Part shown: positions 937-13,821 of the stretch, one piece after another
Numbering within the stretch: the stretch's first letter is position 1
Layout of the letters: each line of letters opens with the position of its first letter
From: a virus
Reading direction: 5' to 3' (one strand)
Virus record (IMG/VR): IMGVR_UViG_3300042261_002385
Coordinates: 62,001-126,000 of that record
DNA length: 64,000 nt
Position numbers and translations under genes: made by a program
Notes under the pieces: model-generated
What the model saw: only the letters and a program-made list of their open reading frames with translations
Databases searched by the model: none
What the model was told of the DNA's origin: nothing

Positions 937-1006
937 GCCGTGTATGAGGTTCGAACTCACTTAGCCCACCTTATGAGAGTAGGTTCTTTTCCACTAAGCC
1001 ACGGCT
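937..1006 (-). tRNA. tRNA-Met (CAT)
   Basis: The minus strand gives an acceptor GCCGTG/CACGGC, T arm with TTCGAAC loop, and anticodon loop CTCATAA, so the anticodon is CAT. It is the last gene of tRNA operon 1, after the thioredoxin gene. The start is uncertain by one base. It could be elongator Met or, if modified to lysidine, Ile(AUA). Leader peptide 1 contains three Met codons. Confidence 0.85.
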
Positions 1007-1011
1007 TTTAT

Positions 1012-1338
1012 TTAATGACTATGTATTACATTTTCTATTTTCTCATACAGTTTTATTTTCGGTAATACACCAACTTGTCTATCAACTACTTCACCATTTT
1101 TAAAAAAGATTATTGTAGGAATTCCTCTTACCCCATATTTATCAGGACTGATTGGATTCTCATCAATGTTTACTTTATAAACCACAATTTTTTCTTCTAA
1201 ATCATTTGAAGCTTCTTCTAATGCTGGAGCTAATGCTTTACAAGGATTACACCAATCGGCCCAAAAATCGACTAAAATTAATTTATCTGAACTTTTAATT
1301 ATATCTTGAAAGTTATCATCTGTTATACTTGCTACCAT
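1012..1338 (-). CDS. Thioredoxin, WCNPC active site
   Basis: 108 residues, the normal length of thioredoxin. It has the fold landmarks VDFWADWCNPCK (active site near residue 31) and the cis-Pro loop RGIPTIIFF. The active-site dipeptide is Asn-Pro rather than the usual Gly-Pro, which may shift redox potential. It reduces disulfides in the cytoplasm; in phages it may serve ribonucleotide reductase or a polymerase, but neither is visible here. It sits inside tRNA operon 1, between tRNA-Leu(TAA) and tRNA-Met, so it is probably co-transcribed with tRNAs. A second, canonical thioredoxin is at 17791-18135. Confidence 0.93.
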   Translation of the reverse strand: MVASITDDNFQDIIKSSDKLILVDFWADWCNPCKALAPALEEASNDLEEKIVVYKVNIDENPISPDKYGVRGIPTIIFFKNGEVVDRQVGVLPKIKLYEKIENVIHSH

Positions 1339-1369
1339 ATCTAAATTTTTTCTTTTATATATTTAATTT

Positions 1370-1458
1370 TGGTACTTCTGGTCGGACTCGAACCGACACG
1401 GACACAATGTCCAAGGGATTTTAAGTCCCTCGCGTGCTACCAATTTCGCCACAGAAGC
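1370..1458 (-). tRNA. tRNA-Leu (TAA)
   Basis: Class II tRNA with a long variable arm. The anticodon stem AGGGA/TCCCT encloses CTTAAAA, anticodon TAA. The acceptor GCTTCTG pairs with CAGAAGT, followed by ACCA. I saw no other tRNA in the window with an encoded 3' CCA. Confidence 0.93.
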
Positions 1459-1464
1459 TTGTTG

Positions 1465-1547
1465 TACCCTGGGAGAGACTCGAACTCTCACGCCTTTCGG
1501 CACCAGATCCTAAATCTGGCGTGTGCTACCAATTTCACCACCAAGGT
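1465..1547 (-). tRNA. tRNA-Leu (TAG)
   Basis: Class II tRNA. Anticodon stem CCAGA/TCTGG with loop TTTAGGA, anticodon TAG, reading CTN Leu codons. Acceptor ACCTTGG pairs with CCAGGGT. No encoded CCA. Confidence 0.92.
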
Positions 1548-1557
1548 AAGTAATTTG

Positions 1558-1631
1558 AGCATCCTGCCAGATTCGAACTGGCGTCTCTGGGTTACAAATC
1601 CAGAATAATTGACCAACTATACGAAGGATGC
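1558..1631 (-). tRNA. tRNA-Thr (TGT)
   Basis: Acceptor GCATCCT/AGGATGC and T arm GCCAG-TTCGAAT-CTGGC are perfect. The anticodon loop TTTGTAA gives TGT, with an A-C mismatch at the last stem pair. Thr ACA/ACG codons are abundant in leader peptide 1. Confidence 0.88.
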
Positions 1632-1638
1632 AATTTTG

Positions 1639-1712
1639 AGACACTGGTCGGATTCGAACCGACATACCACAGTTTTGCAGACTGGGACCTAAAGCCATTC
1701 AGACACAGTGTC
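1639..1712 (-). tRNA. tRNA-Cys (GCA)
   Basis: Acceptor GACACTG pairs with CAGTGTC. Anticodon loop CTGCAAA gives GCA. T arm GTCGG-TTCGAAT-CCGAC. One Cys (TGT) codon is present in leader peptide 1. Confidence 0.92.
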
Positions 1713-1719
1713 GTTTTGT

Positions 1720-1792
1720 TGGAATGATAGGACTTGAACCTACGACCTCCACGGTATCAGCGTGGCGCTCTCGACCAACTGAGCTACATTCC
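1720..1792 (-). tRNA. tRNA-Ile (GAT)
   Basis: Canonical class I cloverleaf: D arm GCTCAGTTGG, anticodon stem CCACG/CGTGG with loop CTGATAC, anticodon GAT, T arm GTAGG-TTCAAGT-CCTAT. Confidence 0.95.
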
Positions 1793-1800
1793 AATTTTTG

Positions 1801-1869
1801 AGGTCAGTATGGGTCTCGAACCCATGACTCGCTTGCGTCCCACTATGAAGCCTTTTATAGTGACCAACC
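1801..1869 (-). tRNA. tRNA-like gene without a recognisable anticodon arm
   Basis: The acceptor GGTTGGT/ACTGACC and T arm ATGGG-TTCGAGA-CCCAT are intact. The middle forms a 6-bp hairpin CACTAT/ATAGTG where the D arm should be. Only about 17 nt remain before the T arm, too few for a normal anticodon arm plus variable loop. It is either a degenerate tRNA or a tRNA mimic; the specificity cannot be read. Confidence 0.5.
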
Positions 1870-1874
1870 ATTTG

Positions 1875-1945
1875 TACCCCGAAGTGGGTTCGAACCACTG
1901 CCATCTCCATGTAAAAGAGATACGCTACCATTACGCCATCGGGGC
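1875..1945 (-). tRNA. tRNA-Val (TAC)
   Basis: Acceptor GCCCCGA/TCGGGGT, anticodon stem TCTCT/GGAGA with loop TTTACAT, anticodon TAC, T arm GTGG-TTCGAAC-CCAC. Leader 1 has two Val GTG codons. Confidence 0.93.
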
Positions 1946-1953
1946 TTTTTTTG

Positions 1954-2025
1954 CGGACTGAGAGAATTACGATATCTCGACCTCAACCTTAACAGGGTTT
2001 TGCTCTGCCTCTGAGCTACCAGTCC
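1954..2025 (-). tRNA. tRNA-Asn (GTT), copy 1
   Basis: Acceptor GGACTGG/TCAGTCC and discriminator G. Anticodon loop CTGTTAA gives GTT. The T loop is ATCGTAA instead of TTCGANT, a swap also seen in the tRNA-His of this window. Confidence 0.88.
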
Positions 2026-2030
2026 TTTTG

Positions 2031-2112
2031 TACCGAGAGAGAGACTCGAACTCTCACGCCTTTCGAACACCGGCTTCTTAGACCGGCGTGTCTACCATTC
2101 CACCACCTCGGC
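2031..2112 (-). tRNA. tRNA-Leu (AAG)
   Basis: Class II tRNA. Anticodon stem CCGGT/GCCGG with loop CTAAGAA, so the anticodon is AAG, with A at the wobble position. Acceptor GCCGAGG pairs with TCTCGGT. A34 tRNAs other than Arg(ACG) are uncommon in bacteria. Confidence 0.9.
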
Positions 2113-2121
2113 ATTTATTCG

Positions 2122-2194
2122 TAGCTCCTACTGGATTCGAACCAGTATCTTCGCTTTAGAAGAGCGACGTCCTGTCCAATTGAACGAAGGAGCC
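2122..2194 (-). tRNA. tRNA-Arg (TCT)
   Basis: Anticodon stem TCGCT/AGCGA with loop CTTCTAA, anticodon TCT, reading AGA. Acceptor GGCTCCT/AGGAGCT and T arm ACTGG-TTCGAAT-CCAGT. Both Arg codons in the first 24 residues of leader 1 are AGA. Confidence 0.94.
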
Positions 2195-2205
2195 ATATTA
2201 TTTTG

Positions 2206-2290
2206 TCGGTAGAGTGGGATTTGAACCCACGTCGTGATTTCTCACCTAGTGTATCAGACTAGTCCCTGAAGACCGCTCGGGTATCTACCG
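2206..2290 (-). tRNA. Class II tRNA with Ile-type anticodon (GAT)
   Basis: Acceptor CGGTAGA/TCTACCG, D arm resembling Ser/Tyr tRNAs (ACCCGAGCGG), and variable hairpin GTGA-GAAA-TCAC. The anticodon stem CTAGT/ACTAG encloses CTGATAC, the same loop as the normal tRNA-Ile at 1720-1792. Class II bodies normally belong to Ser, Leu or Tyr, so the charging identity is unclear. The stop codon of the HNH gene lies inside its first bases. Confidence 0.8.
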
Positions 2291-2824
2291 TAATCTTTCT
2301 AACCTTTTTTCTTCTTCTATATTATAATGTATTTCCCCATGGCAATTTCTACACACTAAAATACATTTATCAACTTCATTTTTTAATTTTTCAAAAGAAT
2401 GAGTTTTCCCACTTACTGAAAAATCTTTTTCTTTTGGGTTTCTATGATGAAATTCTAAAGATGATATACATTTATTATATCCACATAATTCACATTCACC
2501 ACCTTTATATTCAACTAGTCTAATCTTAACTCTTCTTCTCCATTCAATTACACTTTGAGAATTAGATTTTGATTCACTATAACTTCTATCTTTATACTTT
2601 TTGACAGTACTTATAGAAACGTTAAACTTTTCTGAAGCTTCTTTTATTGTATGTGTTTTACAATAGTTTTTTAACTCTTCTATATCAAATCTTCTTTCAG
2701 AATTTAATCCATATCTTTTACAATGATAACTAATTGTTGATTTTGATATGTTTAATTCTTTTTTTATTTCATCATAACTTTTACCTTCTTTTCTTAATTT
2801 TATTACTTTATCTTTAGTTTCCAT
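2285..2824 (-). CDS. HNH endonuclease with N-terminal helix-turn-helix repeats
   Basis: 179 residues. Residues ~1-80 contain two helix-turn-helix-like units (KSYDEIKKELNISKSTISYH and TIKEASEKFNVSISTVKKY). Residues ~105-170 form a zinc-bound HNH nuclease: CELCGYNKC, EFHHRNP and CRNCHGEIHY. This is the layout of free-standing homing endonucleases, which cut intron-less or variant alleles of neighbouring sites. It is inserted between tRNA-Asn and the class II GAT tRNA of operon 1, and its TAG overlaps the 5' end of that tRNA, so cutting may target the tRNA array. Confidence 0.9.
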   Translation of the reverse strand: METKDKVIKLRKEGKSYDEIKKELNISKSTISYHCKRYGLNSERRFDIEELKNYCKTHTIKEASEKFNVSISTVKKYKDRSYSESKSNSQSVIEWRRRVKIRLVEYKGGECELCGYNKCISSLEFHHRNPKEKDFSVSGKTHSFEKLKNEVDKCILVCRNCHGEIHYNIEEEKRLERLR

Positions 2825-2888
2825 AGGTCTTAATTATTTTATGTTAAATATTAAAAATTAAAACCTTTTTAACCAAAGTGGTTAATTG

Positions 2889-2963
2889 CGGACTTGATAG
2901 GATTCGAACCTACTATCTTCTGCTTAACAGGCAGTAGCTTATGACCACTTAAGCTTCAAGTCC
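2889..2963 (-). tRNA. tRNA-Asn (GTT), copy 2
   Basis: First gene of operon 1 after the attenuator-like terminator. Acceptor GGACTTG/CAAGTCC, discriminator G, anticodon loop CTGTTAA, T arm ATAGG-TTCGAAT-CCTAT. Asn is the most frequent residue in leader peptide 1 (six of the first 24). Confidence 0.95.
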
Positions 2964-2982
2964 TTTTATTAACTATATCAAA

Positions 2983-3014
2983 ACAAAAAACCCTCAGATT
3001 TTCATCTGAGGGTT
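2983..3014 (-). terminator. Intrinsic terminator/attenuator T1 before tRNA operon 1
   Basis: On the minus strand an 11-bp hairpin AACCCTCAGAT/ATCTGAGGGTT with a GAAA-type tetraloop is followed by a T run. It lies after leader ORF 1 and 26 nt before tRNA-Asn, so transcription must read through it to make the operon 1 tRNAs. Confidence 0.88.
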
Positions 3015-3045
3015 CGTGTTATATTTAGTTATTATACGTCACATT

Positions 3046-3159
3046 TTACGAGACAAATTTTCTAAATAGATAGGAACCCTCAGAAGGTCTAATATTACAT
3101 AACGTAATATTCACCACATTGAGTGTCAGGTTCATCATATTTGTCGTATTTGTTCTCAT
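3046..3159 (-). CDS. Leader peptide 1, cognate to tRNA operon 1
   Basis: A 37-residue ORF with ATG start and TAA stop. Residues 1-24 consist only of Asn (6), Thr (5), Met (3), Leu (3), Arg (2), Val (2), Ile (2) and Cys (1). These are the eight amino acids served by the readable tRNAs of the downstream operon. Residues 25-29 (PSEGS) are encoded by the predicted antiterminator strand (3074-3084). A trp-type attenuation leader is the best explanation: stalling in the first part would free the antiterminator. Codons 9-12 (GAACCTGA) could pair with the antiterminator as a protector strand. Translation is inferred, not shown. Confidence 0.75.
   Translation of the reverse strand: MRTNTTNMMNLTLNVVNITLCNIRPSEGSYLFRKFVS
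3074..3084 (-). promoter_or_regulatory. Predicted antiterminator strand of attenuator 1
   Basis: Minus-strand TCTGAGGGTTC, inside leader ORF 1, is the exact reverse complement of GAACCCTCAGA at 3005-3015, the 5' arm of terminator T1. All 11 bases pair, so the two structures are mutually exclusive. Confidence 0.8.
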
Positions 3160-3163
3160 TGTT

Positions 3164-3177
3164 GTTATATATTATAA
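3164..3177 (-). promoter_or_regulatory. Phage-type TATA promoter motif upstream of leader 1
   Basis: Minus-strand TTATAATATATAAC ends 4 nt before the leader 1 ATG. It matches the motif found upstream of many genes in this window. Confidence 0.55.
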
Positions 3178-3216
3178 ATTATTAGTCTCTTTTGACTTTT
3201 TTGTCATTATTTTATA

Positions 3217-3248
3217 CAAATTTAAATAAAAGTTTTAATTCTACCAAA
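3217..3248 (-). promoter_or_regulatory. Bacteroidota-type promoter for leader 1 / tRNA operon 1
   Basis: Minus-strand TTTG (3245-3248), a 20-nt spacer and TAAATTTG (3217-3224) match the host consensus TTTG and TAnnTTTG. About 50 nt of surrounding sequence is near-identical to the promoter of leader 4 at 13790-13821. Confidence 0.8.
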
Positions 3249-3259
3249 TTTAATCTAAA

Positions 3260-4615
3260 TTATTTTACTGGTGTCTCAGTTTTTTCACCAGGCTTAGCAA
3301 CTTCTGGTTTTTCACCAGGTTTCACAGGTGTCTGTTCTACAGGTTTTTCACCAGGCTTAGTCTCACTTTCTTTATGACCAGGTTTCAAATGATGAATTGT
3401 GTGATAAACGTGATAAATAGCAAATCCTATAGCAGCAACTGTAAGTAAAACTTTTATTGTTTTTCCAATTGGATCAGTCTCAGCATACAAATTAAAAGCG
3501 GCTAAAAACCATTTTTTCATATCCATAGCTGCTTCCATTCCCGGAAAAGGTGTAGCTCCTACAAGTAAACAAACATCACCAACTATACCAACTAAAGCAC
3601 CTACAATAGCACCTAAAGCTACAAATTTGAATGGACCGGGTCCACCAGCCCATTTAGATATCTTAGAAACAAAAGTAAGAGAAGCGTTTGTAACAACTTC
3701 ACCTACTAGTTCTGCAACTTTAACAATCAGTCCAAAAAAAGAAGATAAAACTCTAAGAATAAGTCTTCCCCACCATATTAGTTTTTTTCCAGTAGTTACC
3801 TCAGCATCTGGACTTTTTTCAATAAAACTCTTAAACCAATCAAGTAAAGAGTCGAATGCTGAAGACTTAACAGCCTTCACAACCTCACCTTCTTTAAGTA
3901 GTTGATAATCATAAAAATGTTTGATTAAATCATCACTCTCCGTATGTTCAATATATGATGAACTTTCTTCTACCTGATTCTCTGTCTCTTGTAGTTCTTT
4001 AAGTGTGGTTGATTCTATATTTCCTTCTCCAGATTGTAATGTAGCTGAAACTTTATTACCTAAATTAGGATTTATTTGGTTAGATTGTAATGCATCTTTT
4101 TTTTCATCACCAGTTCTTAAAAAGTTAAAAACACTTTTCAAATTCGGAATTTCTTGTTCAACTGTTTTCTTATCAGTAGATTCAATTTTTTTAGCTATAG
4201 CATCTTTTTTATCAACAGATAGCTTCTTTCCAAGATTAAGAGCTCCATTTAACATCCCCAAGAAAACATTCTTACAAAAAGTCATGATACCTTTTACAAA
4301 CCAAGAAATACCATCAATAATTTTCTTAACACGCTCTTTAAATGAATTTACAAATTTCTCTCCTTTATCTTTGACATAAGCAACTGCTTTATCTAAAAAC
4401 TGCCATTCTTCTTTTAATAGGTTGAATTTGGATTCTAAAAGTTCATTTTGGATAAACTTTTTTTCAGTATTATCAAAAATTTCAGATTTTAAACATAAAT
4501 TCCAAAAATTATCTGACAGTTCTTCATAAATTTGACCTTTTATTATAGAAGCCTGTTTATTTGCATGTTTTTTTTGTTCTTTAACAAAAGATTTATAATT
4601 TCTTACATAACTCAT
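3260..4615 (-). CDS. Large protein with hydrophobic segments and a Lys-Pro-Gly-Glu repeat tail
   Basis: 451 residues from the ATG at 4615, chosen because it follows a TTTAATATATAAC motif by 18 nt; the upstream in-frame TTG is less likely. The N-terminal half is charged and helical. Residues ~270-410 contain several amphipathic or membrane-type segments (LILRVLSSFFGLIVKVAELV, FVALGAIVGALVGIVGDVCL). The last ~45 residues are imperfect KPGEKPE repeats, a flexible tail. The composition recalls phage tail or injected membrane-active proteins, and partly resembles the protein at 59532-63875. Function unknown. Confidence 0.8.
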   Translation of the reverse strand: MSYVRNYKSFVKEQKKHANKQASIIKGQIYEELSDNFWNLCLKSEIFDNTEKKFIQNELLESKFNLLKEEWQFLDKAVAYVKDKGEKFVNSFKERVKKIIDGISWFVKGIMTFCKNVFLGMLNGALNLGKKLSVDKKDAIAKKIESTDKKTVEQEIPNLKSVFNFLRTGDEKKDALQSNQINPNLGNKVSATLQSGEGNIESTTLKELQETENQVEESSSYIEHTESDDLIKHFYDYQLLKEGEVVKAVKSSAFDSLLDWFKSFIEKSPDAEVTTGKKLIWWGRLILRVLSSFFGLIVKVAELVGEVVTNASLTFVSKISKWAGGPGPFKFVALGAIVGALVGIVGDVCLLVGATPFPGMEAAMDMKKWFLAAFNLYAETDPIGKTIKVLLTVAAIGFAIYHVYHTIHHLKPGHKESETKPGEKPVEQTPVKPGEKPEVAKPGEKTETPVK

Positions 4616-4633
4616 ATTTGTAAACAACTTTTT

Positions 4634-4646
4634 GTTATATATTAAA
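4634..4646 (-). promoter_or_regulatory. Phage-type TATA promoter motif
   Basis: Minus-strand TTTAATATATAAC, 18 nt before the ATG of the 451-residue protein and overlapping the stop codon of the upstream ribbon-helix-helix gene. Confidence 0.55.
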
Positions 4647-4818
4647 TACCCGATTTATTTTTCTGAGCCTTTAATAATTTCCAATTCTCAACATCTCTTT
4701 CCATAAACTTTCTTATCCTTTTAGAGAAATTCATTGAGTTTTCATCACAAAATTGTTTATATTCTTCTAATAATTTTTCAGGGATTCTAATTGAAATCAT
4801 TTTATCTTTGGTTGCCAT
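4642..4818 (-). CDS. Small ribbon-helix-helix (Arc/CopG-like) DNA-binding protein
   Basis: A 58-residue ORF with ATG start and TAA stop. Residues 6-45 fit a ribbon-helix-helix: strand KMISIRIP, helix EKLLEEYKQFCDEN and helix NFSKRIRKFMERDVENW. Such proteins dimerise and repress promoters. Its stop codon overlaps the TATA motif of the next gene, so it may regulate its own neighbourhood. No toxin partner is adjacent. Confidence 0.7.
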   Translation of the reverse strand: MATKDKMISIRIPEKLLEEYKQFCDENSMNFSKRIRKFMERDVENWKLLKAQKNKSGI

Positions 4819-4866
4819 AAATTATACATTTTTATACATATATATCTTTGTATGGACATTCCCTCA

Positions 4867-5421
4867 CTAAATATCTCTCAAAAAGTTAAAATCGGTTATA
4901 TCAAGTTTTAATCCTATGTTAAATCTGTTGAAAAAATCAACTAGTTTTTGTAGACTTTTATCTTCGATAGCAAAAATCGTATGTGTTGGATCGAATTTCG
5001 AATTATAACTTGTGTCTTGTATAACATGAACGCCTTTTCTACTTATAGAAAACTCAGACGCCATCATATCTCCAAATGTTATATCAACATCTAATCTCAT
5101 ATTTGGTATGTAACTACCAGGACTTCTATCATAGTCAAAAGTTCCTGATTTTATCACAGTAGTCTGGTCAATATGTTGTTCACCAGAATCATCTTTGACT
5201 AGATAAATATCAATTTCTAAAGTATCAGGAGCTAACCATCTGTTTATATCATAAGAGATTTGTAACATATCAGAGTTCAACATTACATTTCCTTTCTTAT
5301 ATTCCAATCTATCAATTCCATATTCCTCACCTTTCAAAACAACAATTGTTTCAGGTAATAAAACTTCCCATTTAGGATCATAAATACTAATATTCTCATT
5401 GAATCTACGAAGATATTTCAT
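4867..5421 (-). CDS. Unknown phage protein with MKYLRRF N-terminal tag
   Basis: 184 residues with no family I recognise. It begins MKYLRRFNEN, one of a set of similar N-termini on unrelated proteins here (7594, 8058, 15294, 38092, 41969). The remainder is a mixed alpha/beta protein with many acidic residues. The ATG follows the exported nuclease gene by 4 nt, suggesting co-transcription. The tag may direct packaging into the capsid; see findings. Confidence 0.75.
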   Translation of the reverse strand: MKYLRRFNENISIYDPKWEVLLPETIVVLKGEEYGIDRLEYKKGNVMLNSDMLQISYDINRWLAPDTLEIDIYLVKDDSGEQHIDQTTVIKSGTFDYDRSPGSYIPNMRLDVDITFGDMMASEFSISRKGVHVIQDTSYNSKFDPTHTIFAIEDKSLQKLVDFFNRFNIGLKLDITDFNFLRDI

Positions 5422-5425
5422 TGCA

Positions 5426-6160
5426 TTATTTTAATTTTATCAAAATTGGTAAATGGTCAGAAAGAGAATTTCTATTTCCTTTGTAAGGATAAACTAAAAC
5501 TTTGCTCTCGACAATTGTGTACTTTTTTTCAACAAAAAAATGATCATAATTATTTTCTGAAACAGAACCATCTCTTTTAAGAGACGTTCCTAAACCACAT
5601 AGTGGTGAATTAAAGTTTTTTAACATAGGAACATAAACTAGATGTTTACAGCTTAAATTGAAGTCTCCACAAATCAAACCATCGGTATATTGATATAATT
5701 TAGAAACTTCGTTTTGAGGAGTTTTGCTTGTTGGAACCAAATGAACTTCTCTAATCACTAAGTCTTTTTTATTAATTTTGAAAGACGCCACAAAAGGTTC
5801 TCTATCAATTGAGTCCTGTAAAGAAGCATCTAATTTAGAATAATTTAATGTTATTGATTTTCTATAAAGATAAGCATATCTTTCAGCACCTTCCCCTGTA
5901 GTTCTTGGTGAAATTACATAATTATAATCTAATATTTTTGCCATTTTCATAATACAAGAGTCACCATAAGGACCAGTGATGACCTCTTGAATAGCTACTA
6001 TGTCAGCACCTGATGATTTAATTACAGTTGTTAATCCAGTAATGACCGAATCTCTTTTAAATTTAGTTTCACCTAAATTTTGTATGTTCCAAGAAAGGAT
6101 TGTTTGTGAATAAGATATGTATGATAATAAGATAATTATAAATAAGAAAATGTTTTTCAT
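5426..6160 (-). CDS. Exported endonuclease/exonuclease/phosphatase (EEP) family protein
   Basis: 244 residues from the ATG at 6160. A signal peptide (MKNIFLFIIILLSYISYSQ) precedes an EEP/DNase I-like domain with its metal and catalytic landmarks: SWNIQN, IQEV, GDFNLS, YDHFF and SDHLPI. These bind Mg2+ and hydrolyse phosphodiesters or phosphomonoesters. A secreted nuclease on a phage genome is unusual; it might act in the periplasm or outside the cell on released DNA, or against competing phage DNA. No cofactor or immunity gene is visible. Confidence 0.88.
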   Translation of the reverse strand: MKNIFLFIIILLSYISYSQTILSWNIQNLGETKFKRDSVITGLTTVIKSSGADIVAIQEVITGPYGDSCIMKMAKILDYNYVISPRTTGEGAERYAYLYRKSITLNYSKLDASLQDSIDREPFVASFKINKKDLVIREVHLVPTSKTPQNEVSKLYQYTDGLICGDFNLSCKHLVYVPMLKNFNSPLCGLGTSLKRDGSVSENNYDHFFVEKKYTIVESKVLVYPYKGNRNSLSDHLPILIKLK

Positions 6161-6176
6161 CAAAAGTGTTTTCTTT

Positions 6177-6332: not shown

Positions 6333-6347
6333 CTCATTAAATTTTTT

Positions 6348-6530: not shown

Positions 6531-6547
6531 TCATTATATTATTTTTG

Positions 6548-6620
6548 AGCGAGAGATGAGGTTCGAACTCACGACCCCCACCTTGGCAAGGTGGCGCTCT
6601 ACCAGCTGAGCTACTCTCGC
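6548..6620 (-). tRNA. tRNA-Gly (GCC)
   Basis: Canonical: acceptor GCGAGAG/CTCTCGC, anticodon stem CCACC/GGTGG with loop TTGCCAA, T arm GTGAG-TTCGAAC-CTCAT. Reads GGC/GGT; leader 2 contains GGC. Confidence 0.96.
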
Positions 6621-6630
6621 TTATTTGATG

Positions 6631-6706
6631 TGGACCAGATGGGAATCGAACCCACCACACCTACCTTGCAAGGGTAAGTCGCCGAAGCCTTGGAACATGC
6701 TAGCCC
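6631..6706 (-). tRNA. tRNA-Ala (TGC)
   Basis: Acceptor GGGCTAG pairs with CTGGTCC using two wobble pairs. Anticodon loop CTTGCAA gives TGC. The D arm is irregular (inner CCAAGG/CTTCGG). Leader 2 contains two GCG Ala codons. Confidence 0.85.
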
Positions 6707-6710
6707 GTAG

Positions 6711-6782
6711 TGCGGGTAACCAGAATCGAACTGACATCACCGACTTGGAAGGCCGGTGTAATAACCATTATACGATACCCGC
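6711..6782 (-). tRNA. tRNA-Gly (TCC)
   Basis: Acceptor GCGGGTA/TACCCGC, anticodon stem CCGGC/GTCGG with loop CTTCCAA, anticodon TCC. Reads GGA/GGG; leader 2 contains both. Confidence 0.94.
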
Positions 6783-6793
6783 ATGTATTTCTG

Positions 6794-6874
6794 TCGGCAA
6801 GGTGGGATTCGAACCCACGTTTTCAACTTCCCGCTACGTGTATAGAATGTATAAGATTCCAACGGTACTTGCCG
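6794..6874 (-). tRNA. tRNA-Ile(TAT)-like with collapsed D arm
   Basis: Acceptor CGGCAAG/CTTGCCG and T arm GTGGG-TTCGAAT-CCCAC are perfect. The best anticodon arm is GGAAT-CTTATAC-ATTCT, anticodon TAT. Only 7 nt separate it from the acceptor, so the D arm is missing, while the variable region is about 25 nt. The two ATA codons in leader 2 support the Ile(AUA) reading. Confidence 0.65.
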
Positions 6875-6878
6875 AAAT

Positions 6879-6909
6879 AAAAAAACCCAGTCCTTTTGAG
6901 ACTGGGTTT
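6879..6909 (-). terminator. Intrinsic terminator/attenuator T2 before tRNA operon 2
   Basis: Minus-strand hairpin AAACCCAGTC/GACTGGGTTT followed by a T run. It lies between leader ORF 2 and the Ile(TAT)-like tRNA. Confidence 0.87.
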
Positions 6910-6930
6910 ATAAATATGTAAAGTCAAATA

Positions 6931-7014
6931 TTACATAACATAACTCAGTCTATAGACTTGACGCCCCGCGCCTGTCGCTATAAATCCAACTGATATGTTT
7001 GTAAAATTTTTCAT
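6931..7014 (-). CDS. Leader peptide 2, cognate to tRNA operon 2
   Basis: A 27-residue ORF from ATG to TAA. Residues 7-17 (ISVGFIATGAG) contain Ile twice as ATA, Gly as GGA, GGC and GGG, and Ala twice as GCG. The downstream tRNAs are Ile(TAT)-like, Gly(TCC), Ala(TGC) and Gly(GCC), so these codons are exactly the ones they would read. Several are rare in this AT-rich genome. Codons 22-25 form the antiterminator, and AGTC-TATA-GACT just before gives a possible protector hairpin. Role as an attenuation leader is inferred. Confidence 0.72.
   Translation of the reverse strand: MKNFTNISVGFIATGAGRQVYRLSYVM
6942..6951 (-). promoter_or_regulatory. Predicted antiterminator strand of attenuator 2
   Basis: Minus-strand AGACTGAGTT, within leader ORF 2, pairs with AACCCAGTCT (6899-6908), the 5' arm of T2, at 9 of 10 positions (one A-C mismatch). 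Confidence 0.65.
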
Positions 7015-7030
7015 TGTTTCTATTATATTT

Positions 7031-7044: not shown

Positions 7045-7068
7045 GTTTTATTTCTTCTTTTATTTTGT

Positions 7069-7149
7069 TGGAAGGGAGGGATTCGAACCCCCGTACTCGT
7101 AAGAGAACAGATTTACAGTCTGTCGGTTTTAGCCACTCACCCACCTTCC
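7069..7149 (-). tRNA. tRNA-Tyr (GTA)
   Basis: Class II tRNA: acceptor GGAAGGT/CCCTTCC, anticodon stem CAGA/TCTG with loop CTGTAAA, long variable arm, discriminator A. Leader 3 has three consecutive TAT codons. Confidence 0.95.
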
Positions 7150-7161
7150 AATAAAGCTTTG

Positions 7162-7233
7162 TAGTCCATACGGGAATCGAACCCGTCTCTCCACCGTGAA
7201 AGGGTGGTGTCCTAGCCGATAGACGAATGGACC
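7162..7233 (-). tRNA. tRNA-Glu (TTC)
   Basis: Acceptor GGTCCAT/ATGGACT, anticodon stem CCACC/GGTGG with loop CTTTCAC, T arm ACGGG-TTCGATT-CCCGT. A host-type promoter lies directly upstream (7253-7284). Confidence 0.95.
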
Positions 7234-7252: not shown

Positions 7253-7284
7253 CAAAGATAAGGTAACTTTTCTAATCTACCAAA
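7253..7284 (-). promoter_or_regulatory. Bacteroidota-type promoter for tRNA-Glu/tRNA-Tyr
   Basis: Minus-strand TTTG (7281-7284), 20-nt spacer, TATCTTTG (7253-7260) fits TTTG/TAnnTTTG. The expected start lies some 10-15 nt before tRNA-Glu and after terminator T3, so it would bypass attenuator 3. Confidence 0.75.
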
Positions 7285-7293: not shown

Positions 7294-7323
7294 AAAAAAA
7301 CCCAATCTTTTCAGACTGGGTTT
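7294..7323 (-). terminator. Intrinsic terminator/attenuator T3 before tRNA-Glu/Tyr
   Basis: Minus-strand hairpin AAACCCAGTC/GATTGGGTTT with one G-T pair, followed by a T run. It follows leader ORF 3. Confidence 0.86.
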
Positions 7324-7343
7324 GTTAAAAGTAAATCAAATAT

Positions 7344-7415
7344 TTACAACACGCAAACTAGTCCGATTGGATTACTACCCTCGGCTTCATAATAATATGT
7401 TGTTATCATTTTCAT
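7344..7415 (-). CDS. Leader peptide 3, Tyr/Glu-rich, cognate to tRNA-Glu/Tyr
   Basis: A 23-residue ORF from ATG to TAA. Residues 7-12 are YYYEAE: three TAT codons in a row, then GAA, GCC and GAG. The next tRNAs downstream are exactly Glu(TTC) and Tyr(GTA). Codons 18-21 can pair with the 5' arm of terminator T3. The initiator tRNA gene lies upstream of this ORF on the same strand. Attenuation leader by analogy with the trp and phe leaders; translation is not proven. Confidence 0.72.
   Translation of the reverse strand: MKMITTYYYEAEGSNPIGLVCVL
7354..7364 (-). promoter_or_regulatory. Predicted antiterminator strand of attenuator 3
   Basis: Minus-strand GGACTAGTTTG pairs with CAAACCCAGTC (7314-7324) as GTTTG/CAAAC plus GACT/AGTC, with a one-by-two internal loop. 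Weaker than in attenuators 1, 2 and 4. Confidence 0.5.
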
Positions 7416-7436: not shown

Positions 7437-7509
7437 TAGCGGGGGTAGGACTCGAACCTACGACCTCTAGGTTATGAGCCTAGCGAGCTACCAACTACTC
7501 CACCCCACA
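7437..7509 (-). tRNA. Initiator tRNA-fMet (CAT)
   Basis: Strong match to bacterial initiator tRNA: TGTGGGGTGGAGTAG at the 5' end, loop CTCATAA, and an unpaired 1-72 position (T-T), the hallmark that permits formylation. Only two consecutive G-C pairs end the anticodon stem, where canonical initiators have three. Confidence 0.92.
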
Positions 7510-8459: not shown

Positions 8460-8464
8460 ATATT

Positions 8465-8830: not shown

Positions 8831-9435
8831 ATCTTTTGAAAAACTACAATATCATCGATTTGAATTTTCTTTACACCTTGTAATTCTGTAAGAACTCCAT
8901 GTAGGCCTAATCCAGCGTTTTTGTTTTCAATAAGAATTGAACCCGGTGCAATCTCTGAAATAATCTTATTATATAACAGTGTAAGTTTTTCAGTTGTCTT
9001 GAAAGGAGTATAGGTATAGACAATGTTATATTTGGAATAGTCTTGATTCATTATATCATCTTCAATTACAGTAAGATTACTATCCCAATATTGAAGAAGT
9101 TTTTCGTTTAGAAAATCAATATAAACTTTTTGTTTCTCAATTCCATAGAATTTAAAAGTCTTACCATCTTCAAATAATTTTGACTGTTGATACATATCAA
9201 AAAGAGCTGTTCCTAATCCTATTCCACAATCACAAATATGATTTTCTTGTAGTAGTAATCCTCTTTCTTCAAGTCTCTGAAGAAGAAATATATTTAATTC
9301 AATATTAGATAGAACATAGTGCCACTCTTCATTTTGGATAAACTCTGGTTTTGAACTATCAAAATCAGTCCAAAGAGTTTTAGAATCCTGAAAATATTTG
9401 ACTAAGTTTTCATTCGGTGTAACTTCTTGTGCCAT
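8827..9435 (-). CDS. SAM-dependent methyltransferase-like protein, paralogue A
   Basis: 202 residues. A class I methyltransferase core is suggested by HICDCGIGLGTALF (motif I, SAM-binding glycines, residues ~65-78), GIEKQKVYIDF (acidic end of strand 2) and NIVYTYTPF (motif IV position). It is clearly homologous over its length to 43335-43931, which repeats all three motifs. The substrate is unknown; the spacing resembles protein or small-molecule methyltransferases more than DNA methylases. Confidence 0.72.
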   Translation of the reverse strand: MAQEVTPNENLVKYFQDSKTLWTDFDSSKPEFIQNEEWHYVLSNIELNIFLLQRLEERGLLLQENHICDCGIGLGTALFDMYQQSKLFEDGKTFKFYGIEKQKVYIDFLNEKLLQYWDSNLTVIEDDIMNQDYSKYNIVYTYTPFKTTEKLTLLYNKIISEIAPGSILIENKNAGLGLHGVLTELQGVKKIQIDDIVVFQKI

Positions 9436-9487
9436 ATAAGTTATATCTATTTTTATATTTAAGTTGTCTATAAAAGAACTCTCTAAA

Positions 9488-9499
9488 GATAATATATAG
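9488..9499 (+). promoter_or_regulatory. Phage-type TATA promoter motif before tail-fibre gene
   Basis: GATAATATATAG, about 20 nt before the ATG at 9520. Confidence 0.5.
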
Positions 9500-9519
9500 T
9501 GTATAAAATAATTTATCTA

Positions 9520-12423
9520 ATGAGCAGTATAGCTTTTGGTAGCACATATTCTTTTTTAACTGCAGCTACGCCATCATCTGGATGGATCATTGGTTTTGAT
9601 ACAGATGGTGTATTAAAGCAAATTGACACATCTGGAAACATTATACTAATAGGTGGTGGACCTACTGCTGGAAATTTAGCAACATATTCTATTTCACAAG
9701 TCTTAACTGTTGGTAATAATACTCAGAATCGTTCCATTATTATGGGAACAGCTACTAACATCAAAAGTGCAAACGGCGGTGGTAAAATTGAGTTAGACCG
9801 TTTAAGTGGAACAAATTCAGTTTTAATATCGACTGATGATAGTTCACAATCTGAAAGTTACTTATTGATGAGGAATGATTATGCAAGACTGTCTACTGAT
9901 TCATCTAAACAGATGATTGATTTGAATAAAACTGATAATGACCTGCGAATTTATAATAACAATGCTGGGTCAATATCAATAGGAGTAGATACAGGTTCTT
10001 TAGTTTACGGCCAGCTAGATGAAATTAAGATATCTTATAACTCTTCATCAACAGCTTCTACTGGTAATTTTGATAAAAATGCCGTTTTAATTGGTTCAAA
10101 AAACTCAAAAATACTTTCAGGAGTTGTTAACACAGTAGTTTTAGGAGGTCAAAATTTTACCGCCTCTAATTCGAATTCAATTTATGTTCCGGATATTTAT
10201 TTACAAAATCAAAAAGGAATAAAGTCGACTAATACAAATGAAGTATTCTATTTGAATGATAATAACGGATACACATTGTTGGACAGAAACTCAGGTAACT
10301 TAGATAATTCTTGGTTACTTATGGCAACTGACTATAATTCTACTTATCAAGCTTATGTTGAAATTGGTGTAAACTCAGACTCCGGATATGGAAATGATTC
10401 TCAAATCTATATCTATAACTCTAAAGGACCATCATATAGTTATCAAGCATATTCAAGTATTACTGTCGGTAAAAATCTTCTTAGATTTGCTTCTCAAGAT
10501 GTCGATGGTGGGTTAGATACAGTTAGAATAAATTTATCAGCTGGTAATTCTATAACTGTTGATGGATCGACTTCTTCTTTTAAAGGTATGGAGTATAATG
10601 ATGATTATTCTCTAAATTTTGTGACACATTCACTTGTAGATAAACAATATGTAGATAGTCAATTTACAGGATTTAATTTAGATGTTGTCCTAGCAGCTGG
10701 AAATAACTCACAGGCTAACGACATCGTTATGGGCACAGCTACAAGTATAAAATCAGCTAATGGTGGAGGTCAAATAGATTTAGACTTATCAGGAAATGCT
10801 GATGAAGTTGTAATATCAACAGATGGTGGAGCTCAAGCAGAATCATTTATTTCTTTGACTGCAACTGACTTATTAATTCAATCAGTTGGTAATATAACTT
10901 TGGATGGTCAAGGTCTAAGAGCATCATCAAACGACTCTTTAGGTATTGTATATCAAGCTGATTATTCGGCTACTTTTATAACACAATCATTAGTGAATAA
11001 AGGATATGTAGACTCAGGAACATCTTCTTTATGGTCAGCAATAAACTCAATTAATACTGATTATATCTCAGAAATAATACCTGGGACAGGTCTTACAGGC
11101 GGTGGAACTTATGGAACGATAAACATAGATATTGAGATAGGTAATGGTTTACAATTTGTAACTAACTCGATTTCATTAGGTGGAACTCTTTCACAAGATA
11201 CAATCATAATAGGAGATTCATTTAATTTCACTTTAGATGAATTAACAAACATAAGTTTAAGTGCGTCTGGAATCATTGACAATTATGCAACAGACTTGTC
11301 GGGATTCTTCGGAGAAACTTATTTAGATTCAAATGTTTTTGAGGCTAAAGTAGGAACCATACATGGTAACACATTTTCGAGAGTAGTAATTCAGAATCAC
11401 GTTTTACTTCTTGAAAACCAAAATGAAATCGGAGATTCGACTAGTTACGGTTTATACTTAAACGAACAAACTATTGGTGACGGTTCAACTGATAATAGAT
11501 TAATAATTAATGACGAAGTTTCTCAGAAAGGTTTAGTTTACTCACAAGATTATACATCTAATTTCACAACATATTCATTAGTTAGTAAAGGATATGCTGA
11601 TTCTTTATTAAGTAGAGTTGAAAATGGTTTAACACAGAGTCCAAACGGAAATATTATGTTAGGTGGAAGTCTGAACACAGCAGTTGTAATTGAAGGATTT
11701 ACTAATAATGTGTATTTCTCAGACGTTGGTAGATTTTCAGTAACTGCGTCTGGTTTTATAGACAAAATGGTTTACGCACCGTCAACAAATACTAGTCAAC
11801 AATTTAATAATGGTGACCAATACTACACAAGAGTGGATGATGCTTTAGGAACTTATTCACTAATAAATTTAGATCCGAGTAGAGTAGATGTTGAAAATTT
11901 AGGTGACGATGGATACCTTACTAAATTCACTATATATTCATCTGGTCAGAGTATAGGTGACCAATCGTCAAATAATAGATTTATAGTGACTGATGATAGT
12001 TATCAAAAAGGAATAGTTTATTCTGATGACTACACTGCAAACTTTACTACTTACTCATTAGTTACTAAACAATATGTTGATTCAAAAAAACCGTATAAAG
12101 TTTATGTAGCTCTTCTTAAACAATCCGGAACCTCAGCACCAACAGATATTGTATTAGAGAACACCTTTGGAATAACAGCTACTTTTAGCTACACTACAAC
12201 AGGTAATTACGAGTTGTATATGACAGGTCAATTTACTTATCAAAAAACATACATAGTAAATGGAATTGCTGATCAAAACCCAATAGGTGGGGATTTTGCC
12301 TTATTTGCAACTCAATACTTTAATACTGATAAAATAATACTTACTACCCAAGATATAGGTGGAACTGGACCAATGAACGGTTTACTAAACGACACATCAA
12401 TTGAAATCAGAGTGTATCCGTAA
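9520..12423 (+). CDS. Tail-fibre/adhesin-like structural protein with repeated SLV-K-YVDS modules
   Basis: 967 residues from the ATG at 9520, chosen because it lies ~20 nt after a TATA motif; an in-frame GTG at 9499 is less likely. The sequence is Ser/Thr/Gly/Asn-rich. A module ending in DDYSLNFVTHSLVDKQYVDS recurs at least four times, and a GTAT(N/S)IKSANGGG segment occurs twice, as in trimeric phage fibres. TGLTGGGTYGTINI is typical of fibre beta-structures. The C-terminus (~90 residues) is a distinct domain, possibly receptor-binding. It ends at the tRNA-Ser(GGA) gene. Confidence 0.85.
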   Translation: MSSIAFGSTYSFLTAATPSSGWIIGFDTDGVLKQIDTSGNIILIGGGPTAGNLATYSISQVLTVGNNTQNRSIIMGTATNIKSANGGGKIELDRLSGTNSVLISTDDSSQSESYLLMRNDYARLSTDSSKQMIDLNKTDNDLRIYNNNAGSISIGVDTGSLVYGQLDEIKISYNSSSTASTGNFDKNAVLIGSKNSKILSGVVNTVVLGGQNFTASNSNSIYVPDIYLQNQKGIKSTNTNEVFYLNDNNGYTLLDRNSGNLDNSWLLMATDYNSTYQAYVEIGVNSDSGYGNDSQIYIYNSKGPSYSYQAYSSITVGKNLLRFASQDVDGGLDTVRINLSAGNSITVDGSTSSFKGMEYNDDYSLNFVTHSLVDKQYVDSQFTGFNLDVVLAAGNNSQANDIVMGTATSIKSANGGGQIDLDLSGNADEVVISTDGGAQAESFISLTATDLLIQSVGNITLDGQGLRASSNDSLGIVYQADYSATFITQSLVNKGYVDSGTSSLWSAINSINTDYISEIIPGTGLTGGGTYGTINIDIEIGNGLQFVTNSISLGGTLSQDTIIIGDSFNFTLDELTNISLSASGIIDNYATDLSGFFGETYLDSNVFEAKVGTIHGNTFSRVVIQNHVLLLENQNEIGDSTSYGLYLNEQTIGDGSTDNRLIINDEVSQKGLVYSQDYTSNFTTYSLVSKGYADSLLSRVENGLTQSPNGNIMLGGSLNTAVVIEGFTNNVYFSDVGRFSVTASGFIDKMVYAPSTNTSQQFNNGDQYYTRVDDALGTYSLINLDPSRVDVENLGDDGYLTKFTIYSSGQSIGDQSSNNRFIVTDDSYQKGIVYSDDYTANFTTYSLVTKQYVDSKKPYKVYVALLKQSGTSAPTDIVLENTFGITATFSYTTTGNYELYMTGQFTYQKTYIVNGIADQNPIGGDFALFATQYFNTDKIILTTQDIGGTGPMNGLLNDTSIEIRVYP

Positions 12424-12424
12424 G

Positions 12425-12510
12425 CGGAGAGCAGAATACTCGAAACCCATGCAATTGAACGCACCCAACGCTTTCCAGGCGTGACTGATGACCTCATCAG
12501 TTTACTCTCC
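12425..12510 (-). tRNA. tRNA-Ser (GGA)
   Basis: Class II: acceptor GGAGAGT/GCTCTCC, discriminator G, anticodon loop CTGGAAA. The D stem is 6 bp (ACTGAT/ATCAGT), longer than usual; the T stem is weak. Confidence 0.85.
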
Positions 12511-12517
12511 AATTTAG

Positions 12518-12603
12518 CGGAGAACAGAGGAATTGAACCCCACACAAATGAACGTGCAACTCGCTTAGCAGGCGGTCCTAATCACCAGATTAGTTTATTC
12601 TCC
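12518..12603 (-). tRNA. tRNA-Ser (GCT)
   Basis: Class II: acceptor GGAGAAT/GTTCTCC, discriminator G, anticodon loop CTGCTAA. D stem again 6 bp (CTAATC/GATTAG). Confidence 0.88.
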
Positions 12604-12609
12604 ATTTAG

Positions 12610-12693
12610 CGGAAGAAGTAGGTGTCGATCCCAATACCTTTCAGTACCCACAGTTTTCAAGACTGGGTTGCAGGCCGCTGCAATTCATCTTCC
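12610..12693 (-). tRNA. tRNA-Ser (TGA)
   Basis: Class II: anticodon stem CAGT/ACTG with loop CTTGAAA, discriminator G, 6-bp D stem (TTGCAG/CTGCAA). The T loop is ATCGACA rather than TTCGANT. Confidence 0.88.
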
Positions 12694-12699
12694 AATTTG

Positions 12700-12772
12700 T
12701 GGTTCTAGAAGTATTCGAAACCTCACTTGATCGTTCGTAGCGACCTGTCCTGTCCAATTAGACGATAGAACC
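12700..12772 (-). tRNA. tRNA-Arg (ACG)
   Basis: Acceptor GGTTCTA/TAGAACC, anticodon stem GGTCG/CGATC with loop CTACGAA. A34 needs deamination to inosine by host TadA to read CGC, which is the Arg codon used in leader 4. Confidence 0.93.
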
Positions 12773-12780
12773 AAATTTAA

Positions 12781-12908
12781 CGGGGATGGTTGGACTCGAA
12801 CCAACGACCTTATAATTTCAAAATATACGAAGTAACTCTTTCAATCAACACTCTTACGAGGTAAAGTTTCAAAAGAGATAGTTTTCTCTACCACTGAGCT
12901 AAATCCCC
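12781..12908 (-). tRNA. tRNA-Phe(GAA)-like gene with a ~55-nt insertion
   Basis: The 5' part (GGGGATTTAGCTCAGTGG) and 3' part (T arm GTTGG-TTCGAGT-CCAAC, acceptor CATCCCC) are ordinary. An arm TATAT-TTTGAAA-TTATA just before the variable loop gives GAA. About 55 extra nt lie between the D arm and this arm and contain a second TTTTGAAA. The total is 128 nt. It could be an intron, a partial tandem duplication, or a non-functional gene. Confidence 0.6.
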
Positions 12909-12919
12909 AATAACATTTG

Positions 12920-12994
12920 TGACTCCGGTGGGACTCGAACCCACATATCCCTGATTAAGAGTCAGGTCCGGAAACCAATTACGGATACGAAGTC
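12920..12994 (-). tRNA. tRNA-Lys (CTT)
   Basis: Acceptor GACTTCG/CGGAGTC, anticodon stem CCTGA/TCAGG with loop CTCTTAA, T arm GTGGG-TTCGAGT-CCCAC. Confidence 0.95.
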
Positions 12995-12999
12995 ATTTG

Positions 13000-13087
13000 T
13001 GCACCCAGAAGGACTCGAACCTTCAACGGACTTTCGTCTACCCCTCGCATTAAAAGTGCGATGCTCTACCAATTGAGCCATAGGTGC
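13000..13087 (-). tRNA. tRNA-Lys (TTT) with extended variable arm
   Basis: Acceptor GCACCTA/TGGGTGC, anticodon stem TCGCA/TGCGA with loop CTTTTAA. At 88 nt it is class II-sized because of an extra variable hairpin (GAC-GAAA-GTC), abnormal for Lys. Confidence 0.88.
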
Positions 13088-13100
13088 TTAATTACCTTAG

Positions 13101-13173
13101 TGACCCCGGCGAGAATCGAACTCGCGACCCCCTGGTTAAAAGCCAGGTGCTCTACCTACTAAGCTACGAAGTC
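13101..13173 (-). tRNA. tRNA-Lys (TTT), standard form
   Basis: Acceptor GACTTCG/CGGGGTC, anticodon stem CCTGG/CCAGG with loop CTTTTAA, T arm GCGAG-TTCGATT-CTCGC. Normal 73-nt size. Confidence 0.96.
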
Positions 13174-13258
13174 AAATTTTTTCTATGTGATGACTTATAA
13201 CTTAGTAAGCCATCACTTAGCGTTTTCGTTTAGTTTCCATTTTCTTTTTTATTTTTAG

Positions 13259-13329
13259 CACGTCGCCTAGGAATTGAACCCAGCCATCGAGGTTTTGGAG
13301 ACCTGACCGACACCTTGTCTGTGCGACGT
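13259..13329 (-). tRNA. tRNA-Trp (CCA)
   Basis: Acceptor ACGTCGC/GCGACGT, discriminator G, anticodon loop CTCCAAA. Leader 4 is the only leader with a Trp codon. Confidence 0.93.
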
Positions 13330-13336
13330 ATGTTTG

Positions 13337-13410
13337 GGTGAACGACGGGTTACGATCCCGCTACCTCTGGCTTCACAAACCAGCACTCTTCCGATTGAGC
13401 TACATTCACC
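13337..13410 (-). tRNA. tRNA-His (GTG)
   Basis: Acceptor GTGAATG/CGTTCAC with the extra G-1/C73 pair diagnostic of His. Anticodon loop TTGTGAA. The T loop is ATCGTAA, as in tRNA-Asn at 1954. Leader 4 is the only leader with a His codon. Confidence 0.93.
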
Positions 13411-13417
13411 ATATAAA

Positions 13418-13464
13418 CCCCACTTCACCAGGTTAACGGACTGGCTGCCATATGGGAGTGGGGG
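13418..13464 (-). ncRNA. Compact structured element between tRNA-His and tRNA-Phe
   Basis: A perfect 7-bp stem CCCCACT/AGTGGGG encloses a CCATATGG palindrome and an arm CCAG/CTGG whose loop includes CGTTAA. It looks like a miniature tRNA with no T arm. It may be a tRNA remnant or a processing signal. Confidence 0.4.
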
Positions 13465-13487
13465 TCTCCTGTTATTCCAGGACTCCG

Positions 13488-13560
13488 TGGAATGGGTGGG
13501 TATCGAGCCCACTCCTCTGGATTTTCAGTCCAGCGCAATTACCTAATCTGCCACCATTCC
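13488..13560 (-). tRNA. tRNA-Phe (GAA)
   Basis: First tRNA of operon 4. Acceptor GGAATGG/CCATTCC, anticodon stem CTGGA/TCCAG with loop CTGAAAA. The T loop is CTCGATA (C54). Confidence 0.93.
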
Positions 13561-13572
13561 AATTTTTTTAAA

Positions 13573-13607
13573 TAAAAAAACCCGAACTTCTTTCGAGGTT
13601 CGGGTTT
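13573..13607 (-). terminator. Intrinsic terminator/attenuator T4 before tRNA operon 4
   Basis: Minus-strand hairpin AAACCCGAAC/GTTCGGGTTT followed by seven or more T. It lies after leader ORF 4 and 18 nt before tRNA-Phe. Confidence 0.9.
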
Positions 13608-13630
13608 AAATTATATTGTCTTTTATAAGT

Positions 13631-13732
13631 TTACACTTCTAAATTTGAGCAATACTCTTTTAGTACCGAACCAGTGGTGCTAAACCACGAAGTCGATTTA
13701 CTAAATGTGCTATGTTTGCGAATTGCTCTCAT
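13631..13732 (-). CDS. Leader peptide 4, cognate to tRNA operon 4
   Basis: A 33-residue ORF from ATG to TAA. Residues 1-18 contain Ser (5), Arg (2), Lys (2), Phe (2), His (1) and Trp (1), plus two Thr, one Ala and one Ile. The downstream operon encodes Phe, His, Trp, three Lys, Arg(ACG) and three Ser tRNAs. One Arg codon is CGC, the codon for that tRNA. Codons 21-23 form the antiterminator. A hairpin GTGGT-TTAGC-ACCAC lies just before it and may pause RNA polymerase. Attenuation role inferred. Confidence 0.73.
   Translation of the reverse strand: MRAIRKHSTFSKSTSWFSTTGSVLKEYCSNLEV
13666..13672 (-). promoter_or_regulatory. Predicted antiterminator strand of attenuator 4
   Basis: Minus-strand GGTTCGG in leader ORF 4 is the exact complement of CCGAACC (13597-13603) in the 5' arm of T4. 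Confidence 0.65.
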
Positions 13733-13737
13733 TTTTT

Positions 13738-13749
13738 TTATATATTGAA
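13738..13749 (-). promoter_or_regulatory. Phage-type TATA promoter motif upstream of leader 4
   Basis: Minus-strand TTCAATATATAA ends 5 nt before the leader 4 ATG. Confidence 0.55.
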
Positions 13750-13789
13750 TTGTTAAACTCTCTTTTTAAATTATTGTCATTATTCTATA

Positions 13790-13821
13790 CAAATGTAGAT
13801 AAAAGTTTTTAATCTACCAAA
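13790..13821 (-). promoter_or_regulatory. Bacteroidota-type promoter for leader 4 / tRNA operon 4
   Basis: Minus-strand TTTG (13818-13821), 20-nt spacer, TACATTTG (13790-13797) exactly fits TTTG/TAnnTTTG. Flanks match the leader 1 promoter. Confidence 0.8.

Follow-up and report, generated by a model that had tools for sequence, protein, structure and literature searches.

Four tRNA operons preceded by short leaders

We analysed a 64,000-nt stretch (hereafter the window) of the IMG/VR virus record IMGVR_UViG_3300042261_002385, comprising bases 62001-126000 of its 436,265 bases. The nearest named records, LR745206.1 (635 kb) and LR756502.1 (642 kb), come from huge phages that are uncultured. 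The window carries four tRNA operons (A to D), and the first-pass annotation of this DNA had placed them correctly: in each, on the minus strand, a short leader open reading frame (ORF) is followed by an intrinsic terminator, 17-31 nt past the stop codon, and then by tRNA genes. The leader was defined irrespective of its composition, as the longest ATG ORF of 10-50 codons which ends 8-45 nt before a terminator with a tRNA behind it. One further operon of this kind lies outside the window, and the five jointly provide tRNAs for all 20 amino acids. Coordinates preceded by G000 follow the numbering of the whole record rather than that of the window.

Operon A starts with a Bacteroidetes-type promoter identified by pattern match (13790-13821, TTTG-N20-TACATTTG). 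Its leader ORF (13631-13732) encodes 33 amino acids, MRAIRKHSTFSKSTSWFSTTGSVLKEYCSNLEV, with codons for R, K, H, S, F and W, which matches the Phe, His, Trp, Lys (three copies), Arg and Ser tRNAs behind it. A candidate antiterminator segment, GGTTCGG (segment 2, by analogy with trp-type attenuators), occupies positions 13666-13672, and the terminator (free energy, dG, -15.9) positions 13578-13607. The array itself (12426-13560) was called as Phe GAA, His GTG, Trp CCA, Lys TTT, Lys TTT, Lys CTT, a composite element (12781-12908), Arg ACG, Ser TGA, Ser GCT and Ser GGA, the anticodons of Ser TGA and Ser GCT being read by eye. In two relatives the tRNAs of operon A form two arrays, His/Phe/Trp/Lys and Arg/Ser, and the leader is divided in the same way, with SSSRSSS preceding Arg/Ser.

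The composite element is a tRNA-like sequence of 128 nt with a large insertion, also found in related records (L001, 14578-14665; L034, 3203-3340). In these relatives a frame TGGATGGTGA...TTTCCTCCA appears to surround an entire Leu-type tRNA, so that one tRNA would seem to be embedded in another structure. Between tRNA-Phe and tRNA-His of the window (13415-13486, minus strand) there is also a G+C-rich, apparently structured sequence of 70 nt, for which neither ARAGORN nor Rfam gave a call.

Operon D is likewise preceded by a Bacteroidetes-type promoter (3217-3248, pattern match). Its leader ORF (3046-3159) encodes 37 amino acids, starting MRTNTTNMMNLTLNVVNITLCNIRPSEG..., and has homologues in 11 records. 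Residues 2-24 consist only of N, I, R, L, V, M, C and T; thus all 23 of the 23 residues between Met1 and Pro25 fall within the eight-amino-acid set of the operon, for which the probability is about 5e-9 by the background of the other leaders. Segment 2 (TCTGAGGGTTC, 3074-3084) can form 11 bp with the 5' arm of the terminator (2989-3014, dG -17.3). The array (936-2963) contains, in order, Asn GTT, Ile GAT, Arg TCT, Leu AAG, Asn GTT, Val TAC, a Met CAT-like element recognised by eye (about 1800-1870), Ile GAT, Cys GCA, Thr TGT, Leu TAG, Leu TAA and Met CAT. Two protein-coding ORFs, both named by eye, are enclosed in it on the same strand: an HNH-like endonuclease (2285-2824) between the first Asn and Ile tRNAs, and a thioredoxin-like protein with the motif WCNPC (1012-1338) before the final Met tRNA.

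The two remaining operons of the window are shorter. Leader B (7344-7415, 23 amino acids, MKMITTYYYEAEGSNPIGLVCVL) contains the codons TAT TAT TAT GAA GCC GAG, and the array behind it (7067-7233) consists of Glu TTC and Tyr GTA. Its segment 2, TCGGACT (7360-7366), belongs to a more extended, imperfect pairing that leaders of the YE family have in common; the terminator is at 7295-7326. Leader C (6931-7014, 27 amino acids, MKNFTNISVGFIATGAGRQVYRLSYVM) has two ATA codons for Ile together with Gly and Ala codons, a segment 2 of sequence AGACTG (6946-6951) and a terminator at 6883-6909. It precedes an array (6547-6874) of Ile TAT (81 nt, G000 68794-68874, anticodon read from the structure), Gly TCC, Ala TGC and Gly GCC. 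In the fifth operon (G000:48850-) the leader MKTFKMNITQVNPQPQDQDPG... (= MKTFKMNITQVNPQPQDQDPGRMANYVFTIS) is followed by tRNA-Gln, -Asp and -Pro.

Leader codons and the genes behind them

Seventeen related records, recruited via a conserved phage protein, yielded 67 leader/operon pairs belonging to 19 leader families. A search of IMG/VR with the exact DNA pattern of leader D returned two true relatives. A degenerate PQPQDQDP pattern gave four matches in other phages, which were unrelated and were rejected as chance.

The match between a leader and its operon was expressed as the share of residues, counted in the part of the leader before the antiterminator segment, which belong to the amino acids of that operon; for comparison, the operons were shuffled within each genome. 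The first-pass annotation had proposed that each leader is enriched in the amino acids, and often the codons, read by its own tRNAs, and this was confirmed: the match was 0.495 for the 67 true pairs versus 0.235 +/- 0.021 after shuffling, a value reached in 0 of 20000 permutations. With one representative per family (n=19) the figures were 0.427 and 0.144 +/- 0.032 (again 0/20000). The leader tails past the antiterminator segment showed no excess (0.162 versus 0.168). For the five leaders of the record itself, the true pairing ranked best among all 120 permutations.

Once the method had been fixed, it was applied to a test set of three huge phages at a greater distance (LR756501.1, LR756504.1 and LR756500.1), which contributed 11 pairs with a match of 0.424 versus 0.172 (4/20000 permutations) and a mean antiterminator z of -3.5. 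Permuted pairings were far worse than the true ones. Examples from this set are MKNLTNIFWHFHFK before His and Phe, MKTKKQQYKQYQPQYK before Pro, Tyr, Tyr and Gln, and MKTVNTNIAIVEIAVIGGAEEG before Glu, Ala, Ile, Val, Gly and Glu. Divergent phages carry unrelated leaders, whose codons match arrays partitioned differently: MKNNINTLVLLLNNLLLQ precedes five Leu tRNAs, MKMIRRQTRKQIQGIRK Arg, Gln and Lys, MKSLSLQCQLLSSSLLSWCLLSS Trp, Leu (three copies), Gln, Cys, Ser and Leu, and ...AIIARARAF Arg, Ala and Arg.

The cognate signal is confined to the true reading frame (z 12.7), with z values of 0.4 and -2.9 in the other frames and 1.6 in antisense. It also extends to the choice between synonymous codons, in counts which are not phylogenetically independent. 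The ratio of ATT/ATC to ATA among the Ile sensor codons was 15:0 where the array holds only tRNA-Ile(GAT) and 4:17 where it holds only tRNA-Ile(TAT) (p 7e-7); Arg sensors follow the anticodon as well (AGR:CGN 19:1 versus 3:12, p 6e-6), as do the Ser codons (p 0.004). Counted in codons back from segment 2, the excess of cognate codons amounts to 0.52-0.61 at distances of 3-11 and to 0.01 at distances of 0-2, as expected if a stalled ribosome must leave segment 2 free. Gaps in pairwise alignments were multiples of three in 267/567 cases in the sensor part and in 67/334 in the spacer, which is suggestive only.

The tRNA regions of phage T4 and the Klebsiella jumbo phage KP13-7 contained no such leader by the same method, and Tenacibaculum phage PTm1 is without tRNAs. 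In Lak phages (L192, 22811, plus strand; L193, 31640, minus strand) a conserved leader-like ORF, M(K/R)QFNNIYKNNVDIYADSFNWYEQ..., and a hairpin stand before a long tRNA array. Most of its residues are cognate; since the array covers most amino acids, this candidate is not decisive.

The same attenuator was found ahead of aminoacyl-tRNA synthetase (aaRS) genes in LR745206.1 and LR756502.1 (gene names by NCBIfam). The leader MNFNTIIIIRYS (IIII) precedes IleRS, MINNNVNILLLPLT (LLL.L) LeuRS, MKTMTINNRNRLTDII AsnRS, MKNIRLNDDRFLLTNCKADW and MRKIIKLKDDRYLWTDCLAD AspRS, MTTSFQQQQQQQINRTD, with seven Gln residues (QQQQQQQ), tRNA-Gln together with GlnRS, and MRALHTYKITIDLG HisRS. The leader MKTINLNNLVVVNVSV (VVV.V.V) was located by reading upstream of an aaRS gene, which was afterwards identified as ValRS. 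The automatic criteria, applied to another 230 kb in LR745206.1 and 160 kb in LR756502.1, yielded no additional convincing attenuators, the ValRS leader having come from manual reading. Another leader, MNTNTTFNFFFSHKMV (FNFFF; LR745206.1, 614956-615030, minus strand), precedes SrmL, a PheS-related "mystery ligase" (NCBIfam NF051887), and its richness in Phe suggests that the substrate of this enzyme is phenylalanine or tRNA-Phe. In LR756502.1 (377658-379200, plus strand) a leader with one His codon is followed by small ORFs, an RNA-ligase-like ORF and HisRS, so that genes for tRNA repair and charging apparently share one attenuated unit.

Terminators, antiterminators and promoters

Across the 67 pairs, the distance from leader stop to terminator is 17-35 nt. 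The antiterminator was modelled by folding the leader tail, the spacer and the 5' arm of the terminator, that is, the RNA present while the 3' arm is not yet made; other terminators with short ORFs from the same phages served as controls. The mean z of the fold was -3.10 for the 67 attenuators versus -0.15 for the 67 control terminators (Mann-Whitney p 2.8e-20). The two alternative structures are balanced in energy, with medians of -16.9 kcal/mol for the terminator and -17.3 kcal/mol for the antiterminator. When scored as a contiguous helix, the antiterminator gives a modest signal per leader (37/67 at p<=0.05), the folding of tail, spacer and 5' arm being much stronger. The helix between segment 2 and the terminator arm is maintained by compensatory changes in several families; in family D the corresponding pairs are TCTGAGGGTTC/GAACCCTCAGA, TCTAGGGGTT/AACCCCTAGA and AATCTGGGTT/AACCCAGATT. 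The annotated ability of every leader of the window to pair with its terminator arm is clear for A (z -4.3) and D (z -5.5), borderline for C (z -2.0, p 0.05) and weak for B taken alone (z -1.2, p 0.14). Support for the antiterminators of B and C comes from their relatives.

A common promoter layout had also been claimed. The order of leader ORF, terminator and tRNAs is indeed common to all four operons of the window, but a recognisable promoter lies directly upstream of A and D only. The pattern match found no Bacteroidetes-type promoter directly upstream of B and C, both of which follow other tRNAs. Among the 67 leaders, 25 have such a promoter upstream, versus 0.3 expected, the consensus being that of the phylum. 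Al-Shayeb et al. placed phage GluRS sequences among Bacteroidetes (PMC7162821).

Probable attenuation relieved by shortage of the cognate charged tRNAs

At the level of sequence, the data establish the match of leaders to tRNAs, its reading frame, the agreement of codons with anticodons, the spacing, the terminators and the conservation of the antiterminators. We infer the translation of the leaders, termination, the direction of the response and its trigger in infected cells. Very probably, the tRNA arrays are governed by ribosome-mediated transcription attenuators of the trp/his/leu/pheST type which sense the charged forms of their own tRNAs. Transcription would begin upstream, and the short leader ORF would be translated. 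If the aminoacyl-tRNA for any codon of the array were short, the ribosome would stall on a sensor codon 3-11 codons before segment 2; leader tail, spacer and terminator 5' arm would then fold as the antiterminator, and RNA polymerase would enter the tRNA genes. With ample charging the ribosome would reach the stop codon and disrupt this fold, so that the terminator would form and the tRNAs would not be made. In untranslated RNA the antiterminator might form by default. Since the codons of one leader stand for many amino acids, a lack of any single one should suffice to open the array; mixed-amino-acid leaders would thus act as OR gates. A plausible trigger is depletion of host tRNAs by decay, demand or defence nucleases; passages in PMC10264068 and PMC11555353 describe phage tRNAs as countering such nucleases. 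In relatives this control extends to cognate aaRS genes, by which the response could raise charging as well as tRNA.

The attenuation proposed in the first-pass annotation withstood the attempts at refutation which can be made by computation, and gained support from a signal at ribosome-footprint distance and from the aaRS genes with cognate leaders. Several observations nevertheless weigh against it. Segment 2 precedes the stop codon by about 16-24 nt, which puts it upstream of its position in the trp operon of Escherichia coli; a ribosome halted at the stop may therefore cover it only in part. A conserved 1:2 pause hairpin over the sensor codons is weakly seen, in family A only, at the Trp-Phe codons. 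To the weak fold of B must be added a Bacteroidetes-type promoter-like site (7253-7284, pattern match), situated past terminator B and ahead of tRNA-Glu, from which transcription could escape attenuation; with this site and none directly upstream of the leader, operon B may be partly constitutive. Met(CAT) tRNAs without a leader (window 7437-7509 and G000:36957-37029, both on the minus strand) lie outside the attenuated arrays, here and in relatives. They are possibly of the initiator type, in which case a leader could not sense them. The genes for GluRS and MetRS (the latter named by eye) in the phage with the ValRS leader have no leader of their own. Finally, extra tRNA would help where tRNA limits translation and would be useless where the amino acid itself does.

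The targets, aaRS genes and tRNA supply, and the terminator/antiterminator switch would also suit T-box-like control, in which uncharged tRNA binds the leader RNA directly via a specifier codon. We regard this as exceedingly unlikely, given that Rfam showed no T-box match in the window, nor at E values up to 1 over the examined tRNA regions (other Rfam leaders were likewise absent from both), and that instead of a single specifier codon in a bulge there are many codons in one frame, with a frame-specific signal and start and stop at fixed spacing. The T-box riboswitch shares with the phage leaders the sensing of tRNA charging and the antitermination of aaRS and supply genes; it differs in binding tRNA directly, its conserved motifs such as Stem I gave no Rfam match in the phage, and the phage signal is translational.

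Conservation of the leader families in amino acid sequence across phages might alternatively mean that the leaders are functional small peptides, the terminators ordinary ends of upstream transcription and the tRNA match a by-product. This is highly improbable, as the match is operon-specific, codon-specific and restricted to the part before the antiterminator, unrelated leaders elsewhere match different tRNA sets, and ordinary terminators of the same phages are without antiterminator folds. It is also conceivable, though very unlikely, that general translation sets the terminator and cognate codons only tune the speed, which would couple the arrays to overall ribosome supply. A ribosome at any position of the leader alters folding, and where translation is lacking the antiterminator, as the first structure to be made, would have the advantage; yet such coupling leaves unexplained the strict cognate choice, the QQQQQQQ and IIII clusters and the three-codon exclusion zone before segment 2.

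Taking attenuation by cognate charged tRNAs as the preferred explanation, we consider it likely that huge phages of Bacteroidetes-like hosts possess a genome-wide, closed-loop regulon of translation supply. Some 5 to 13 attenuators per phage would share out all amino acids between tRNA arrays and aaRS genes. Each would be a multi-input OR gate which opens when its own charged tRNAs run short, and the set would be the first known in which tRNA operons are controlled by ribosomes that stall at codons cognate to those same operons. In agreement with the first-pass annotation, no tRNA operon so regulated was found in the open full-text literature (subscription papers being outside this scope), and the text of the huge-phage paper PMC7162821 contains neither "attenuat" nor "leader". 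It has long been asked when and why phages make tRNAs, and the genome analysed here would spell out which shortage triggers which tRNAs. Such leaders may also predict the substrates of enzymes, as for SrmL, and could be used as ready-made sensors of single charged tRNAs in studies of infection.

Replacement of nuclease-cut host tRNAs by phage tRNAs, as presented in those passages of PMC10264068 and PMC11555353, shares with our system a plausible benefit when host tRNAs fail; the passages deal with tRNA sequence and supply, not with a shortage-sensing leader. Attenuators of aaRS genes are already known from pheST and from trpS and leuS of Streptomyces (PMC1262725). There too a cognate-codon leader and a terminator precede the aaRS gene, as in the phage relatives, but these systems are bacterial, respond to a single amino acid and have no tRNA arrays under the leader; a multi-aaRS attenuator set in a phage appears to be undescribed. 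With trp, his and leu attenuation of Proteobacteria and Actinobacteria, the phage system has in common the leader ORF with cognate codons, the competition of antiterminator and terminator, and probably stall-dependent read-through. It differs in that the targets are tRNA genes rather than enzymes, that one leader covers up to eight amino acids, and that several attenuators split all 20 among them, which would bring attenuation to tRNA genes, to many amino acids at once and to the scale of a regulon in viruses.

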